From Methylococcaceae bacterium (GTDB lineage: Bacteria > Pseudomonadota > Gammaproteobacteria > Methylococcales > Methylococcaceae): DNA of 60,584 nt. The DNA lies in assembly GCA_902812445.1 (NCBI GenBank), contig CADDZF010000003.1:1-60584 (forward strand), in the 5' to 3' direction. The position numbers and the translations under genes were made by a program. Shown here one piece after another: positions 4,759 through 14,881 of this stretch (position 1 is the first letter of the stretch; each line of letters starts with the position of its first letter). The notes under the pieces were generated by a model, which saw nothing but the letters and a program-made list of their open reading frames with translations, made no database searches and was not told the DNA's origin.

Positions 4759-5591
4759 TCACCCCAGCTTGCGGTACAGCGTGTCGCGGTCCACGCCCAG
4801 GGTGCGCGCGGCCTGGATCTTGTTGCCGCCGGTCGCATCGAGCACGTGCCGAATATACGCCCGTTCCGCGTCTTCCAGGGTCCAGCCGCGGGCCAGGGCG
4901 TCGTTCAGGAAATGATCGTTTCCCGCTATCCGGGAAGCCTGCGCCAGGTCCTCGAGCAACAGGTATCGTGTTCCGCCAGGGCGATGGCTCGCTCCAGGGT
5001 GCTGGCGAGTTCCCGCACGTTGCCGGGCCAGCGGTAGGCGCGGATCCAACGCAGGGCGTCTACCGACACCGCCGGCGAGGGCTTCCGGAGGCGCAAGCCG
5101 ATCCGCCGAATGAGGACATCCACCAGTTCGTCGATATCCTCCGTGCGTTCCCGCAAAGGCGGTAGCTCCAGCCGGATCATATTGATGCGATGATAAAGAT
5201 CGGCCCGGAACAGCCGCTCGTTGACCCGCTGTTCCAGCGGCTGATTGGTGGCGGCAATCAGCCGCACGTCCACCACGGTTTCCCGCGTGTGGCCGAGAGG
5301 GCGGATGGTTCCCGCTTCCAGTGCCTGGAGCAGTTTAGGCTGCACCTCCAATGGCAGTTCGGCGATCTCGCCCAGGAACAAGGTGCCGCCGTTGGCCTGG
5401 GCAAACAGACCGGGCCGATCCTGGCGGGCGTCGGTGTAGGCGCCCTTGTGCACGCCAGGACTTTCCTGGATATAGGTCGACGTGGCGTAGATCGGCGTGA
5501 TGACGGCGCCGGTGGACGCAGCGGGAGGTTGGCCGGTGTGAATGGCGCGTGTGGCGAAGCGGTGGCGGCGGTTGCGATCTAACTCTGACAT
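4759..5591 (-). pseudogene. Chimera: cystathionine gamma-synthase/lyase 5' end fused to a sigma-54 activator 3' end
   Basis: Reading from 5591 leftward, codons 1 to about 50 are the unmistakable start of a MetB/CGL-type PLP enzyme ([37 protein letters not shown]). At about 5437-5452 this passes in frame into the AAA+ domain of a bacterial enhancer-binding protein: [16 protein letters not shown], then [59 protein letters not shown]. The Walker A part is absent and the Walker B Asp is Gly (FLGEI). A further frameshift near 4961-4968 moves the C-terminal Fis-type helix-turn-helix (GNKIQAARTLGVDRDTLYRKLG) to another frame, ending at 4759. Both parent genes are dead here. The upstream gene encodes cystathionine beta-synthase, the natural partner of the lost lyase. 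Confidence 0.8.
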
Positions 5592-7581: not shown

Positions 7582-8281
7582 CAGCAAACGCCAGCAGGAA
7601 GGCTCGGGCAGGGATACCGATTCTCAGCCCGCGGCGATTGCGCGCGCGAACAGGGAGCATATCGTACTTACGAAATTCCGCAGTGCGCCAAGCATGGGCT
7701 CAAGCGATCCAGACAGTGACCTCGAGAAAACAGTGGGCGCTAATCTGCGTCAACTGCGCAAGCAAAAGGGCGTTTCCCTGGAGCAATTCGCCAAGTTGAC
7801 TGGAGTCAGCCGGGCCATGCTTGGCCAGATCGAACTGGGACACAGCACGCCGACCATCAAGGTTTTGTGGAAGATCGCTCGCGCGCTGGATATCCCGATC
7901 AATGCCTTTCTGAGCGAAGACGCGGCAACAAAATCGGTGTTGCTGGTGCGTGCCGAGGAGTCGAAGGTGCTGATTTCCACGGATGGCAAATTCCGATCGC
8001 GGGCGCTATTTCCGTTCGACATGGCGCGGAAAGTGGAATTTTACGAGCTGATCATGAAAAGTCAGGCGGTAGAGGAAGCGGATGCACATCCCCCGGGCAC
8101 AACGGAAAACTTGGTCGTGGCGACGGGAAGCGTCGAAGTCACCGTCAATAACCAGCGTTACCTGGTGGCCGAGGGGGATGCTATCCTCTTCACAGCGGAT
8201 GTCCCGCATACGTACCGCAATCCAGACGATGCCGAGACGCGGATCTATCTGGTGATGGTCTACGCGGAAACCCGCTATTGA
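7568..8281 (+). CDS. XRE-family transcriptional regulator with C-terminal cupin domain
   Basis: The 237-residue protein has a poorly conserved, polar N-terminus of about 50 residues, a lambda-repressor-type helix-turn-helix (residues about 55-110: VGANLRQLRKQKGVSLEQFAKLTGVSRAMLGQIELG), and a cupin_2 domain near the end (TENLVVATGSVEVTVNNQ, YLVAEGDAILFTADVPHTYRN). Regulators of this layout bind a small ligand in the cupin and control genes for amino-acid, sulfur or polyamine metabolism; the position next to cystathionine beta-synthase suggests a sulfur-amino-acid role, which is inference. ATG 7568 overlaps the upstream 56-codon gene; ATG 7694 just before the helix-turn-helix is a possible alternative. 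Its last 276 nt are antisense to the 3' end of the Met-rich gene. Confidence 0.85.
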   Translation: MTPGNSKRQQEGSGRDTDSQPAAIARANREHIVLTKFRSAPSMGSSDPDSDLEKTVGANLRQLRKQKGVSLEQFAKLTGVSRAMLGQIELGHSTPTIKVLWKIARALDIPINAFLSEDAATKSVLLVRAEESKVLISTDGKFRSRALFPFDMARKVEFYELIMKSQAVEEADAHPPGTTENLVVATGSVEVTVNNQRYLVAEGDAILFTADVPHTYRNPDDAETRIYLVMVYAETRY

Positions 8282-8698
8282 TCCAATAGTAGCGACAAAG
8301 GTCTCATTCAACGAGCCGTGGCAAGCTCCGATTGAATAGCGCGCCTGCTGCGACCGGCTCGATCCAGCCAGGCAGCACATCATCATCGGCATACCGCCGC
8401 ACATCATCATCATCGGCATGCCGCACTTCATCATCGACATCATCATGTCGCAGCAGTTCTTCATCATTTCCATGCTCATGCCTTCCATCGGCATCATATT
8501 GCAGGTCATGCCGTCGTTGGTCATTTCGCATTTCATCTTGCACATCATCATGGGCATCATGCCCATCGGCATGCCACCCATCATCGGCATTCCCATTCCC
8601 ATGGTGTTCATCATGTTCATGGGCATTCCCATCATGTTCATGGGCATTCCCATCATGTTCATGGGCATCCCAGTATTCATCATTGGCATTGCGTTCAT
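8006..8698 (-). CDS. Met/Cys-rich probable metal-binding protein with a tail antisense to the XRE gene
   Basis: ATG 8698 follows GGAGAG by 7 nt. The first 110 residues contain about 52 Met and 9 Cys, arranged as MPMNMMG repeats, then CKMKCEM, MTCNMMPMEGMSMEMMKNCC, a KCGMPMMMMC stretch and MMMCC. This composition points to Cu(I) or another soft metal, as in methionine-rich copper proteins, but no known fold is visible and there is no signal peptide. After CCLAG the frame continues another ~118 residues that look random and are antisense to the 3' part of the regulator gene, so an ancestral stop near 8360 was probably lost, or the tail is real but unusual. An alternative frame (8304-8729) is His/Asp-rich; I consider it a by-product of the ATG-rich repeat. 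Confidence 0.6.
   Translation of the reverse strand: MNAMPMMNTGMPMNMMGMPMNMMGMPMNMMNTMGMGMPMMGGMPMGMMPMMMCKMKCEMTNDGMTCNMMPMEGMSMEMMKNCCDMMMSMMKCGMPMMMMCGGMPMMMCCLAGSSRSQQARYSIGACHGSLNETFVATIGSIAGFRVDHHQIDPRLGIVWIAVRMRDIRCEEDSIPLGHQVTLVIDGDFDASRRHDQVFRCARGMCIRFLYRLTFHDQLVKFHFPRHVERK
8611..8673. repeat. 21-bp tandem repeat, three copies, inside the Met-rich gene
   Basis: Units 8611-8631 and 8632-8652 are identical (TCATGTTCATGGGCATTCCC plus A). The third, 8653-8673, differs only near its end. Each encodes seven residues of the Met-rich protein (GMPMNMM in the minus-strand frame). Such exact copies suggest recent expansion by slippage and a site of length variation. Confidence 0.9.
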
Positions 8699-8900: not shown

Positions 8901-9977
8901 TCAAAGAAGCTGGTAACGGATGAGGCGCGCTCTCAGAACGTTACGGCTGATGTTCAGTAGCCTGGCCGTATGGACCTGGTTCCTTTCGCAAAAATTGTAG
9001 GCTGTGCTGATGGTCGTTTTTTCGACGAGGTCATACAGGCTGGGCGGGTTTTTATCGAACAGGTTGCGCAGCGCGCGCTCAAGTTCATCGCTTTCGGGCT
9101 GTGCCGCCGGAGCAACGGCGGATTGCTGCGTTGAAGCGGCTGAAAAGTGCAAATCCTCGGGCCTCAACGTGGCGCCGGGACAGACCAACAGCGCGTAATG
9201 AATGACATTTTCCAGTTCCCGAATATTGCCCGGCCAGGAATATTCCTGCATTCTGCGTTCTGCCTCGGGCGAGATGTGGGCTTCTGCTTGACCGATACGC
9301 TCGGCATAGATCCTGAGGTAATGATGAGCCAGGGGCAGAATATCGCCGGGGCGTTCCCGTAGCGGCGGCAGATAAATGGGCGCGACACTCAGCCGATAGT
9401 AAAGATCTTCACGGAAGCGCCCGGCCTGCACTGCTGCTTTCAGATCGACATTGGTCGCGGCGATCATCCGTACATTGATAGGTATCGATTTGCGCGAGCC
9501 GACTCGCACGACTTCGCGCTCCTGCAGGACGCGCAACAGTTTTACCTGAATACTCGGAGGCAAATCGCCGATCTCGTCGAGAAACAGCGTGCCGCCATGA
9601 GCGGTCTCGAACCAGCCGGCTTTTTCGCTTACCGCGCCGGTGAAAGCGCCGCGTTCATGGCCGAACAGTTCAGTTTCGATTAACGATTCGGATAGTGATG
9701 CGCAGTTGACCGCGACAAATGATCTGTTGCCTCGCTCGCTCAAAGCATGTATGTGGCGTGCGATGAGTTCCTTGCCCGTACCCGTCTCCCCGATGATCAA
9801 AGCCGACGCGGAGCTCGGAGCGATGCGCTCGAGCCTATCCAGCAGCTCTCTTGATTTCGGATCTTCGAAAACCAGCGCGGTCGCCCGTATGGATAAACTG
9901 AACGAGCGCGGTTCGGGAAAAGTCAGCACGGGGCTTTCATAGTAAGTGTCAGGTCGATCGAAAGGCTTGATTGACAT
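8901..9977 (-). CDS. Sigma-54-dependent activator without a sensory domain (PspF-like layout)
   Basis: The 358-residue protein has only about 40 residues before its AAA+ domain. Walker A is GETGTGKE (63-70), the sigma-54 contact loop is GAFTGA (110-115), Walker B is LFLDE (131-135), followed by the [21 protein letters not shown] and [12 protein letters not shown] signatures. A Fis-type DNA-binding helix-turn-helix ends the protein ([16 protein letters not shown]). It should remodel RNA polymerase-sigma54 holoenzyme at -24/-12 promoters. With no receiver, GAF or PAS domain, control probably comes from a partner protein or from expression level, as with PspF. It is the last gene of the minus-strand sulfur run, 36 nt after the EAL-like gene. 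ATG 9977 is preferred to TTG 9983. Confidence 0.85.
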
Positions 9978-10013
9978 TGCCAACTCGGGTCGCTAAACGC
10001 TGAGCCTGGGGAT

Positions 10014-10943
10014 TTAAGCCGGATTCGGCGCGGTATCCGTCTGGATGTCAGCCCGCAGCGCTTTTTCCAAAAAGCAGTCGGCTGACAGGCGTTTGTTGGC
10101 TGACAGGCGTTTGTCAACCGGGTTGGACAGACCATAGCGGGTGTCATAATAGGCGCCCATTACCAGATCGATTCCCGCGTCCCCGGCGGCAGCGGCCTGG
10201 GCTCTGGTTTCAATGCGCTCCTGCAGCACCTGTCCGCCGAGCTCGTGAGCCACCGAAACCAGCGACTTGATGCGCTCCTGGCTAAAGCCATCGGGAGCAT
10301 GCTCCTGCGTGTTCAGGAAAGAGGCATCCAGCCTCACGAAGTTCGGCAGCACCTGGCGCAACAGATCGGGGTGGCGCGAGCCGTTGCCGCTAGCCAGCTT
10401 GAGGGCGATGCCATAACCGCGTTCGCGGTAATTGGTCAAGCCTTCGATCAACACGCTGTTGTAGCCATGACTGTAACCAGGACTGGTCTCGATGGTGATG
10501 ATCACGCGCTGGGGCGTCAAGCCGCAGCGGAAAAGCACTTCTTCGAAATACGCGCCGTGGTTGCGTTTGACATTCAGCACGTGGCGCGGATGCACATAAA
10601 GGAAGAGCAGACCTTCTTCATGCGCGTTCGGTAGATAATTCAGCATGTGGATGGTGCGGCAGAGGCGATCGAGGTCGATCACCGAGCTCCCTTCCGCCGA
10701 AGCAAACAGATCCAGGGCTTCATAGAGATTGTTATCGTCTATGTACGCCCTGAGGCAGGCGTCGTGGCCCACGATTCTATCGGGCGATGCGGTGAGGCGA
10801 ACACGATGAAAGAGGCTGCTGAGAATGATATCGCCATAGCGGCCTTCTACTCTGTTGTCTTGCAGCGAAAGCGGCGGCTGAGCGAGCCCCCTTTCTTTGC
10901 AGATACGTTCGTTGAAATAGGCGACAAGTTGCTGTAAGGGCAT
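10014..10943 (-). CDS. Degenerate EAL-domain protein, probably non-catalytic
   Basis: The 309-residue protein aligns with EAL c-di-GMP phosphodiesterases in outline but has lost key residues. The EAL signature is DAC (GHDACLRAY), the region normally ITE reads TIETSPG, the metal-binding DDFG is replaced by KLASGNG, and the KID lysine is Arg (VRLDASF). ERIETRAQ matches the late EGVE-x-AQ motif. Loss of the acidic pair predicts no hydrolysis; it could bind c-di-GMP or proteins instead. The start ATG 10943 has AAGGA upstream. Near the C-terminus a duplicated 18-bp segment repeats RLSANK/RLSAD. It lies between the glutamine-amidotransferase-like gene and the sigma-54 activator, and could be the missing sensor or partner for that activator (inference). 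Confidence 0.75.
   Translation of the reverse strand: MPLQQLVAYFNERICKERGLAQPPLSLQDNRVEGRYGDIILSSLFHRVRLTASPDRIVGHDACLRAYIDDNNLYEALDLFASAEGSSVIDLDRLCRTIHMLNYLPNAHEEGLLFLYVHPRHVLNVKRNHGAYFEEVLFRCGLTPQRVIITIETSPGYSHGYNSVLIEGLTNYRERGYGIALKLASGNGSRHPDLLRQVLPNFVRLDASFLNTQEHAPDGFSQERIKSLVSVAHELGGQVLQERIETRAQAAAAGDAGIDLVMGAYYDTRYGLSNPVDKRLSANKRLSADCFLEKALRADIQTDTAPNPA
10080..10116. repeat. Short tandem duplication in the EAL-like gene
   Basis: GCTGACAGGCGTTTGT occurs twice in direct order, 18 bp apart, giving the repeated RLSA-containing hexapeptide near the C-terminus of the EAL-like protein. It keeps the frame and looks like recent slippage in a tolerant tail. Confidence 0.8.
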
Positions 10944-12070: not shown

Positions 12071-13087
12071 TCAGCGGCCCGGCGTATAAATCTTGTCGAA
12101 CACGCCACCGTCGGCGAAGTGCTTCTCCTGGGCTTCCTTCCAGCCGCCAAACAGCGCATCGACGGTGAACAGTTCCAGGTTGGCGAACTGCTTGCCGTAT
12201 TTGGCCAAAACTTCTGCATCGCGCGGACGATAGTGGTGTTTCGCTGCCAGTTCCTGCGCTTCCTTGCTATAGAGGTATTTCAGGTATTCCGTAGCCACCT
12301 TCTCCGTACCGTGCCGTTTCACGACCTTGTCGACGACCGTGACCGGGGGTTCGGCCAGGATGCTTACGGATGGTGTGACGATTTGGAATTTTTCATTGCC
12401 GCCATATTCCTTGAGTATCAGAAAGCCCTCGTTTTCCCAGGTGAGCAGAACATCCCCGATCTCACGCTCGGCAAAGGAAACACTCGCTCCGCGCGCGCCG
12501 GTATCGAGGACGGCCGTATTTTTGTACAGCTTGCCGACGAACTCCTGGGCTTTTTCCTCGCTGCCGTATTTTTTCAGCGCGTAGCCCCACGCCGCCAGAT
12601 AAACCCAGCGGGCGCCCCCCGAGGTTTTCGGGTTTGGCGTGACGATGGAAACGCCGTTCTTGACCACGTCGTCCCAGTCCTTGATGTTTTTCGGATTGCC
12701 GGCGCGAACTAGAAAGACGATGGTGGATGTGTAAGGCGAACTGTTCTGCGGCAGGCGGCCTTGCCAGCTTTTCGGAACCAGCTTGGCCTTATCGTAGAGT
12801 TGATCGACATCGTAGGCAAGGGCCAGCGTGACGACGTCGCCCTCGAGCCCATCGACCACGGCGCGCGCCTGTTTGCCGCTGCCGCCGTGAGATTGCTGGA
12901 TTGTCACGTCCTCGCCGGTCTTGCTCTTCCAGTACTTGGCGAACAGCGCGTTGTAGTCTTGATAGAGCTCGCGCGTCGGATCGTAGGAAACGTTAAGCAG
13001 AGTGACCTCGGCTTTGGCGCTGTCGGGCTGCAATGCAATCAAGATCATCAGCGTCGTGAACAGGGCTGTCGATTTCAAGAAAGACAT
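12071..13087 (-). CDS. Sulfate/thiosulfate ABC transporter periplasmic binding protein
   Basis: The 338-residue protein is Sbp/CysP-like. A signal peptide ends near DSAKA (about residue 26), and the mature protein starts [19 protein letters not shown], the family hallmark. Other marks are [13 protein letters not shown] (sulfate-contact loop), [36 protein letters not shown] and [16 protein letters not shown]. It should deliver sulfate or thiosulfate to CysTWA-type membrane components, none of which is in this window. AAGGAG precedes ATG 13087. It follows the porin gene after about 39 nt, so a pore plus binding-protein route across the outer membrane and periplasm is suggested. The exact substrate (sulfate, thiosulfate, another oxyanion) is not settled by sequence. 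Confidence 0.9.
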
Positions 13088-13126: not shown

Positions 13127-14791
13127 TTAAAACGCATATTGGAAACGGGTGAAAAATACCTTCTCCGTTTCGCGGTCGGCCAGTTGATTGGTGCCAGTGC
13201 CGGCTTTCCCGCCTTCAAAGTAAGTCTGTTCGTAATCTGCCATGAGCTTGATGTTGGCGTTGAGATACCAATTCAGCCCCACGGCCCACGAGGTCGCCCT
13301 GCTGATGGAGGTTTGCGGGTTCGCCAGGAAGAACGGGCTTTGCGCCGTTGCGTAATTTCTGAAGGTGTCGTCATCGATATCGAGTTCGCTCCAGCGCGCG
13401 GCAAGCTGGAACGCGCCCCAGGTGCTAGCAAAAGGATTGAAAGCGTGCGGCGGCCGGACGCCCTGAAACGTGTTGTCCTCGCCGGTCAACACGTAGGACG
13501 CGGCGATCTGCCAGGCAGTATTGTCCTGGCGTACGGACACATCGTTGCGGACATGGGTGACGTTGCCGATCCTGCGGGTTCTTGTGCCATGCAGTCCCTG
13601 CGAGGAAAGCACCCATTCGCCCAAAAGCCCGTAAGGCCCCCAGTACCAGTAAGCCTGTGGGTAAAGGCGGTAATGATCACCGGATGAGGTGACGCTGCTG
13701 ACATTGGTGATCACATTGGCGCCGCGCACGGTGTTGGCGCTCGTGGCATTGGCATAACTGAGGACCGCGTTTTGGCCCGGACTGGTCAGGTTGGCTAGCT
13801 GATTTTCGAAAGGCTGGCCCCAACTGCCGGCGACGCCGACGCCAAGGCCTTCCAGCACCGATACGCCGGAGTGCTGAAACGGATGAGCGAAGACGCGACC
13901 CTCGAATTCCTTGTCGTCGTCTCGATCGGTGTCGGCATTCTGCACCGCCTGGTTATCCGTGGTCCCGTTGAAGACTCCAAGATGGTAGGTGATGACGTCG
14001 TTGAAATTGTGCAGGCCCCCATACTGCGCTGTAGATCCGAGCCGTGAAATGTTGCCGTGCAACACGACGCCCAAATCCCGGTTGGGTGCGAGCTGGGTCG
14101 GATAAGCCCGCTCGGCAAACAACAGGGCCGTCGCGCTCTGCAGGCGCTCGAGGCTGATCGGCGCTTTCTGTTTGCCCGCGGCCAAGCTGGCGAAGGGAAA
14201 GTAGTGCAGGTCGACATAGCCGTCGAATAGTCTAGCCTGCCCCCCACCGAAGTCCGGTGCGAAGCGGAAATCGACGTGTTTGAATAAAGTGCCGTCCAGT
14301 AATAGCCGTGCGCGGCGCAAAGTGAATTTGTCGGGGATATTGGTGCGGTTCTGCGGCGTGGTGCCTTGTGTGGAATCATCCATGAAAAAATTCCCATCGG
14401 CCTGCACAAAGCCGCGTATTCTGAGATTATGTCCACCATCCGGCGAGGAAATTTTGACGCCAGACGAGCCTGCTTCAATCTTGGGGGTCTTTTTCGCGTT
14501 TTCCGCGGCTACCTCCTGCTCGACCTCCCGCTTTCTTTCCAGTATCCTGACCTTCTGGTCGAGCGCCTTGACGGTTCGCTCGTCCGCCGCCGGCTGGGCT
14601 GCTGCCTCTGCAGAGGGCGCTGCGATGATGTTGCGGTTGCCTCGCTCGGCGACTTCAAGCCTCCGCTCCAGCTCTCGTAGACGCCGTTCCATGGCCTCGA
14701 ATTTCTTTTCGTCGAGCGCTGCAAGGGCAGGATCGGCTCCCAGAACACTATTGACCGTCAGCACCAGGACCCACATACGGGGATGTTTCAT
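13127..14791 (-). CDS. OprO/OprP-type anion-selective outer-membrane porin
   Basis: The 554-residue product has a signal peptide (VLVLTVNSVLG to ALA), a coiled-coil-like N-terminal stretch (EKKFEAMERRLRELERRLEVAE, ALDQKVRILERKREVEQ) and then a phosphate-selective porin O/P barrel (NLRIRGFVQADGNFF, FTLRRARLLLDG, VDFRFAPDFG, DGYVDLHYF, AGKQKAPISLERLQSA). It ends in FTRFQYAF, with the terminal Phe recognised by BAM. The coiled coil probably trimerises or tethers to peptidoglycan. AAGGAG lies upstream of ATG 14791; the TTG three bases upstream is less likely. Its place between yezD and the sulfate-binding protein suggests it passes sulfate or organosulfonates rather than phosphate, an inference from context. 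Confidence 0.85.
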   Translation of the reverse strand: MKHPRMWVLVLTVNSVLGADPALAALDEKKFEAMERRLRELERRLEVAERGNRNIIAAPSAEAAAQPAADERTVKALDQKVRILERKREVEQEVAAENAKKTPKIEAGSSGVKISSPDGGHNLRIRGFVQADGNFFMDDSTQGTTPQNRTNIPDKFTLRRARLLLDGTLFKHVDFRFAPDFGGGQARLFDGYVDLHYFPFASLAAGKQKAPISLERLQSATALLFAERAYPTQLAPNRDLGVVLHGNISRLGSTAQYGGLHNFNDVITYHLGVFNGTTDNQAVQNADTDRDDDKEFEGRVFAHPFQHSGVSVLEGLGVGVAGSWGQPFENQLANLTSPGQNAVLSYANATSANTVRGANVITNVSSVTSSGDHYRLYPQAYWYWGPYGLLGEWVLSSQGLHGTRTRRIGNVTHVRNDVSVRQDNTAWQIAASYVLTGEDNTFQGVRPPHAFNPFASTWGAFQLAARWSELDIDDDTFRNYATAQSPFFLANPQTSISRATSWAVGLNWYLNANIKLMADYEQTYFEGGKAGTGTNQLADRETEKVFFTRFQYAF

Positions 14792-14881
14792 CAATGTTCT
14801 CCTTATTTCAGAGAACTTCCGGCGGTCCGGTCAGTCTGCTTACGCTAAGATTCTTATTGCCTCCGGATGACCGGTTGGCCT

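Follow-up and report, generated by a model that had tools for sequence, protein, structure and literature searches.

A degenerate stand-alone EAL-fold protein encoded with sulfate-uptake and cysteine genes in Methylococcales: a candidate sulfur-limitation regulator

What does an EAL-fold protein do once the acids of its active site have been lost, and with which partner does it work? The question is raised by a gene in a 60,584-nucleotide stretch of a Methylococcaceae genome (contig CADDZF010000003.1, positions 1 to 60,584), here called the window. An earlier note on this DNA had described the product as an EAL-fold protein that cannot hydrolyse c-di-GMP in the usual way, and had proposed that it could be a ligand- or protein-binding controller of the activator encoded beside it. 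The gene belongs to a run of six genes on the same strand, in the order porin O/P, sulfate-binding protein, Mop, glutamine amidotransferase (GATase), EAL and sigma-54 activator (Table 1). The gaps flanking the EAL gene are 22 bp on the GATase side and 30 bp on the activator side, as the reading frames were called. The window genome, from a family that also contains Methylomagnum, has a completeness rating of 99.94%. A search of this genome for PF02461 (pMMO/AMO A) gave no match, and control genomes gave none either.

Table 1. Coordinates of the genes of the EAL run in the window and of the conserved stretch within the EAL gene
Feature	Position	Strand	Basis
Porin O/P-type outer-membrane porin	13127..14794	(-)	PF07396, 96.6 bits (cut-off 20.9)
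Sulfate ABC transporter substrate-binding protein (Sbp)	12071..13087	(-)	NF008022, 493 bits (cut-off 288)
Stand-alone Mop/TOBE (molybdenum-pterin binding domain) protein, 71 aa	11667..11882	(-)	TIGR00638, 56.3 bits (cut-off 55)
Class II glutamine-amidotransferase-like protein, 208 aa	10966..11592	(-)	GATase_4, 39.8 bits (cut-off 23)
Degenerate EAL-fold protein, 309 aa	10014..10943	(-)	Pfam EAL, fold and residue alignment
Codons of the H121 ... H129-GAYF133 stretch (residues 117-133) of the EAL protein	10545..10593	(-)	Computed from the ORF start
Sensor-less sigma-54 AAA+ activator, SfnR-type by similarity and relatives' context	8901..9983	(-)	

The sole Pfam domain of the product is EAL (PF00563, 60.6 bits against a cut-off of 31.3), and it stands alone, without GGDEF. 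An AlphaFold2 model was computed from an input of this protein together with 13 homologues. It has a mean pLDDT of 77 and a pTM of 0.78, with residues 277-309 unreliable. Its top Foldseek match is a solved EAL domain, 4q6j (E 5e-12), and its top VIA match is 6ij2 (Z 20.5, 2.7 Å over 216 residues). With a profile score over the curated cut-off and a predicted EAL fold, the protein is a member of the EAL family, as the earlier note had it.

The active site is another matter. The protein was aligned with eight of the 12 other EAL matches in its genome, all eight being canonical EAL domains. Where the canonical columns read E/N/E/D/D/K/E/Q, the window protein reads D/Y/T/K/A/R/E/M, so that none of the metal ligands (E, N, E, D and D) and not the catalytic Lys either is kept, and the residue set of a phosphodiesterase is lacking. 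In a second alignment A/S stands in place of K/A at the DDFG loop; the acids are missing in both. That EAL reads DAC and that DDFG is gone had been noticed before, and the alignment agrees, the Asn, Glu, Lys and Gln positions being altered too. The ExLxR Arg and the two EGxE Glu are retained, while Gln is replaced by Met and Lys by Arg. The eight canonical domains are intact, apart from one in which the second D is N; in the five scored catalytic columns all eight are intact and none is degenerate. The fold and the Pfam family are thus shared with the EAL c-di-GMP phosphodiesterases (RocR, VcEAL and others), from which the window protein differs by the replacement of its catalytic and metal-binding residues. 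Near the 3' end of the gene there is a perfect 18-bp tandem duplication (10080-10114), with a repeated KRLSA in the protein tail.

The loss is not peculiar to the window. Homologues were taken from 16 loci of named genomes, from 61 relative genomes (the window genome included) and from samples of the order and the class. In the resulting family table of 74 rows, which contains one gene (L124) twice, 70 rows keep at most one of the five catalytic columns, three are partial and one is intact. Five loci (L118, L122, L136, L218 and L219) are outside the residue tables and the tree and were counted by tblastn in the locus tallies. The nearest relatives outside the clade are sister EAL proteins from elsewhere in the phylum (L026-L054, mostly 420-530 aa), most of which have an extra C-terminal part, unlike the window family. 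Catalytic columns are intact in 24 of the 28 sister rows that were rebuilt from a set of 29 (L039 was left out), partial in the other four and degenerate in none. In a quick tree of 109 rows, 73 of them from the family, 70 family rows form one group with an SH-aLRT of 93, and 69 of these are degenerate; the intact family row and two partial ones fall outside this main clade. Two state changes suffice to explain the catalytic loss on the tree. All trees were quick ones with SH-aLRT support only; in this one several long branches carry a flag and the support of some inner forks is weak.

Of the 40 listed pairs with the highest similarity, 36 have dN/dS values of 0.034-0.213 and four are saturated; many of the dS values are above 1. 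The estimates come from close relatives only, and the best identity of the window gene in the set is 49%. As judged from the alignments and the tree, catalytic loss is a trait of the clade under purifying selection in close relatives, not local decay. Usual c-di-GMP hydrolysis by the window protein, which the earlier note had ruled out, is very unlikely on the residues replaced both in it and in its clade. A binding or regulatory role is the best remaining reading, because the clade of degenerate EAL proteins is under purifying selection in close relatives, and to this extent the proposed role as a ligand- or protein-binding controller stands. Second EAL copies were seen at two loci: in L213 the degenerate gene is preceded by an EAL that is partly intact, and in L020 two EAL genes, the second at 1128-1988, flank CysTWA.

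At a threshold of E 1e-25, the family profile matches 114 of the order's 201 genomes; f1, the family of the window, contributes 32 of its 38 genomes, and f95, to which Methylovulum belongs, 82 of the 121 listed. Across the sample of the class, 14 of 369 genomes match, three of them within the order. Three of the 11 matches outside the order beat 1e-40, two in family f120 and one in f180, and both f120 loci have the order Sbp-Mop-EAL-CysTWA.

With what, then, is the gene associated? Neighbours were tallied within a radius of 8 kb at 85 distinct loci, that is 91 less six duplicates, a set in which many loci hold less than 8 kb of flank and which includes the paralogues or outliers L123, L135, L137, L218 and L219. 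Sbp, CysT, CysW or CysA lies within 8 kb of EAL at 46 of the 85 loci. The number rises to 64 once CysB-type LysR, cysteine synthase, serine acetyltransferase, family 2A encapsulin or cargo desulfurase is added. A same-strand Sbp gene lies no more than 1.5 kb upstream at 24 loci, and a divergent LysR within 700 bp upstream at 23. Sulfur markers are absent from 21 of the 85 loci within 8 kb or the shorter available flank, some of these being cut by contig ends. For comparison, 20 loci centred on homologues of the sigma-54 activator from the window were tallied: Sbp or CysTWA occurs at 0 of 20 and the encapsulin cluster at 4 of 20. The recurrent partner of EAL is sulfate uptake, CysB-type regulators and cysteine genes, rather than the activator. 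Because the gene is so often found with sulfate-uptake and cysteine genes, its product is probably a regulator of sulfur starvation, not a signalling enzyme.

Encapsulin, its cargo cysteine desulfurase or both are encoded near EAL at 16 of the 85 loci. The neighbouring encapsulin scores 533 bits with the family 2A model (cut-off 380) and the cargo cysteine desulfurase 879 bits (cut-off 800). An encapsulin of the family 2A type carrying a cysteine desulfurase is described in PMC8049743 as upregulated upon sulfate starvation. Encapsulin, cargo desulfurase, serine acetyltransferase and cysteine synthase occur near EAL in L106, L119, L190, L193, L208, L209, L211, L212 and others. The search of the window genome for family 2A encapsulin gave no match, and control genomes gave none either.

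The LysR protein adjoining EAL forms, in quick trees, a clade apart from the housekeeping-type CysB that is found elsewhere in several of the same genomes. The CysB-family models score best with it, yet under the NCBIfam cut-offs. In family f95 this paralogue is present in 80 of 82 genomes with EAL, as against 20 of 39 without (121 listed genomes, Fisher p 1.4e-9, uncorrected for descent; six genomes without a match are not in the list). Among the 82, the EAL match is weak and shorter in G808 and G858 and partial or split in G889, G906 and G920. Methylovulum miyakonense has two EAL copies, each of which adjoins its own LysR copy. The EAL and the LysR of Nitrosomonas both group with their Methylovulum counterparts, which suggests, as far as the trees go, that the two genes moved jointly into Nitrosomonas by horizontal transfer.

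The association with this regulator is not universal. Of the 38 genomes in f1, to which the window belongs, 32 have EAL but only one (G430) gave a match to the paralogue. A dedicated CysB paralogue was not found in the window genome, which has only the housekeeping type, and in the Nitrosomonas genome of L020, where EAL lies in a CysTWA operon, there is no CysB match at E 1e-30. Because of these three observations, no single regulator is, on the genomes searched, an obligatory partner of EAL.

The EAL protein would be a stand-alone pseudo-phosphodiesterase that Methylococcales, and some Nitrosomonas, encode as part of their sulfate/cysteine (sulfur-limitation) gene set. It is presumably cytosolic and made together with the sulfate-uptake genes, and it would work by binding a partner protein, the likeliest being the transcription factor of the regulon. 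In f95 and in most Nitrosomonas genomes seen, this partner would be the dedicated CysB paralogue, often divergently transcribed from EAL; in the window genome the candidates would be the housekeeping CysB and the SfnR-type activator, whose gene is the next one downstream. Under sulfate shortage the EAL protein would tune the partner regulator, as YdiV does with Fur and FlhDC. We give about an even chance to this reading, in which a non-catalytic protein regulates the response to sulfur limitation by contact with another protein, the likeliest being a CysB-family factor or, for the window, one of the SfnR type. Two counts from the genome comparison may be held against it: the 20 f95 genomes that have the paralogue without an EAL match, and the 21 loci of 85 that lack a sulfur marker. 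The tests of co-occurrence among EAL, the CysB paralogue and the activator are all confounded by descent.

The precedent comes from the enterobacteria. YdiV, a degenerate EAL domain protein, is described as an inhibitor of FlhD4C2 which, together with SlyD, also alters Fur under iron deficiency (PMC7515728). It is induced under nutrient starvation and modulates the transcription factors FlhD4C2 and Fur, according to PMC7515728 and PMC10100727. The likeness, drawn from the published description, is that proteins of the YdiV/STM1697 type are also stand-alone degenerate EAL proteins. The window family differs in its sulfur-linked regulon and gene neighbours, and its binding of a transcription factor is putative. 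If the parallel is correct, the YdiV-Fur precedent would be extended from iron to sulfur.

Among the alternatives, the best placed is that the pocket has been re-tooled: the mouth of the barrel would bind or convert a metabolite of the sulfur pathway or a sulfate analogue, the protein being a sensor or a pathway enzyme. This is unlikely, and it is the family-specific core that makes it worth weighing. In 46 family rows, conservation of residues H121, H129, G130, A131, Y132, F133 and C140 stands at 96-100%; the sister and canonical rows differ there, and H121, H129, Y132, F133 and C140 are the invariant positions to which this reading appeals. By comparison, D92, R93, H99 and N102 are conserved in both family and sister rows. 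In the model, strand 112-116 ends at the position that corresponds in the alignment to the metal-binding Asn of canonical domains, and residues 117-133 come after this strand; for this reason the stretch is placed, by inference from the model, at the former active-site mouth. The linkage of the gene to cysteine synthesis genes also fits. Conservation of the core could instead serve folding or a protein interface. In its most specific form, which we hold to be improbable in equal measure, the EAL barrel would be a sensor of sulfur status, in which a mouth made of H121, H129-GAYF and C140 binds a cysteine-pathway metabolite or a sulfate analogue and signals to the CysB-family regulator (in the window, the SfnR-type one). 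If so, the EAL protein would have left c-di-GMP signalling for nutrient sensing and would have moved between Methylococcales and Nitrosomonas with its regulator.

Direct action on the sulfate ABC transporter, for instance on CysA, with gating of uptake, is less probable again. It would account for the position of EAL between Sbp and CysTWA in L107, L111, L117, L121, L127, L133, L216 and L217, and inside CysTWA operons in L009/L116 and L020. It fits poorly with the many loci that have no CysTWA nearby, with the window genome, whose CysTWA is on another contig, and with the Nitrosomonas loci L019, L022, L023 and L024, which retain EAL with LysR only.

The pairing proposed in the earlier note, namely specific control of the adjacent activator, has a still smaller chance of being right. 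The neighbour lies on the same strand, 30 bp away, and its AAA+ match begins at residue 38, with no other N-terminal family and no recognised sensor domain. The label 'PspF-like' is only loosely right, and identity with PspF was rejected, as both PspF models score under their cut-offs (TIGR02974, 284.6 against 443.55; NF008622, 233.3 against 529). Its best match among plasmid records, at 61.7% identity, is a sigma-54 regulator that a P. aeruginosa plasmid encodes next to msuE, ssuD and a gene for an acyl-CoA dehydrogenase, and sfnR is reported to group with msu genes (PMC8234197). With no recognised N-terminal sensor and a close homologue linked to sulfonate genes, the protein is classed as probably of the SfnR type. 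It resembles the SfnR-type activators of sulfur scavenging in sequence and differs from them by lying in a porin-sbp-EAL run; its activation of sulfur promoters is putative. In relatives, only 4 of 20 loci of activator homologues are beside encapsulin or cysteine genes.

The close spacing in the window speaks for the pairing, as does L197, where the order is CysB< >EAL >activator, with EAL and the activator in the same order and direction as in the window; in L215 the two are also near. Homologues of at least 58% identity are present in 20 of 35 relatives with EAL and in one of the 26 that lack it; put the other way, EAL occurs in 20 of the 21 genomes that have a homologue, a count confounded by descent. 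The two genes are 28-69 kb apart in 5 of the 12 relatives that carry both on one contig. As regards adjacency, co-occurrence in other genomes, which the earlier note had named as a check, largely fails, because a close homologue lies within 8 kb of EAL at 3 of 85 loci (the window, L197 and L215) and none of 58% identity or more is present in 15 of the 35 relatives with EAL. The same two counts go against the activator as the main partner. It is plausibly a member of the same regulon, not a constant partner of EAL. A scan of the window for the sigma-54 promoter consensus gave 27 matches, below the 32.4 expected from shuffles, and a promoter signal was rejected.

Catalytically dead EAL receptors such as LapD and FimX bind c-di-GMP through conserved contact residues, and a protein of this kind could link c-di-GMP to sulfur uptake. 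The dead EAL fold is common to both. Of the contact residues, the ExLxR Arg and the two Glu of EGxE are still present in the window protein, and the Gln and the Lys are lost. In the family the contacts are not conserved: the Arg is kept in 11 of 49 rows, the first Glu in 25 and the Gln in 28, and the Lys is almost always Arg. (The 49-row table includes the duplicates L009/L116 and L016/L125 and the intact paralogue L135.) A c-di-GMP receptor is, on this count, very improbable. That the gene is a decaying relic without function, as the loss of catalytic residues might suggest, was rejected as practically incompatible with the dN/dS of relatives, the strong new conserved core and the long retention across genera.

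Inactive EAL regulators are already known. A conserved family of them in a sulfate/cysteine gene set appears new, in that no publication on one turned up in the restricted literature collection searched, as judged from titles and abstract starts. In this collection EAL with sulfate transport, inactive EAL with sulfate, and EAL with encapsulin gave no paper, and degenerate EAL with sulfur and EAL with CysB gave papers on other subjects. What makes the family worth attention is that a dead signalling enzyme is kept under selection beside the sulfate-uptake and cysteine genes of environmental bacteria. This one unstudied gene joins three known items of sulfur starvation: SfnR-type activators, CysB-type regulators and family 2A encapsulins. 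If the protein is indeed a sulfur-limitation regulator, it would offer a simple system for studying how an inactive EAL domain turns into a nutrient regulator, with a single clade, sister proteins that are mostly intact, and a CysB paralogue dedicated to it.

Several minor features of the neighbourhood may be recorded. Stand-alone Mop/TOBE genes occur near EAL in 7 of 91 loci, one of them a duplicate (the window, L016/L125, L111, L133, L216 and L217); their products perhaps serve in oxyanion storage or sensing. A class II glutamine amidotransferase, which we take to be YafJ-like, is encoded directly downstream of EAL in L186, L189, L190 and L196. The window GATase, directly upstream of EAL, is weakly similar to it (31% over 80 aa). 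Downstream of the sigma-54 gene, ORF 8006-8698 (-) has 52 Met and 9 Cys in its first 125 residues, with short tandem repeats, and continues antisense to an HTH/cupin gene; its predicted product could be a metal- or sulfur-rich protein, or the ORF could be a repeat artefact. Further along, the chimeric ORF 4926-5591 (-) joins the start of a Cys/Met-metabolism PLP enzyme (a weak Pfam match) in frame to the rear part of a sigma-54 AAA+ domain. Its apparent C-terminus lies in another frame, at 4759-5049 (-), and the chimera would reflect either a deletion or a misassembly.
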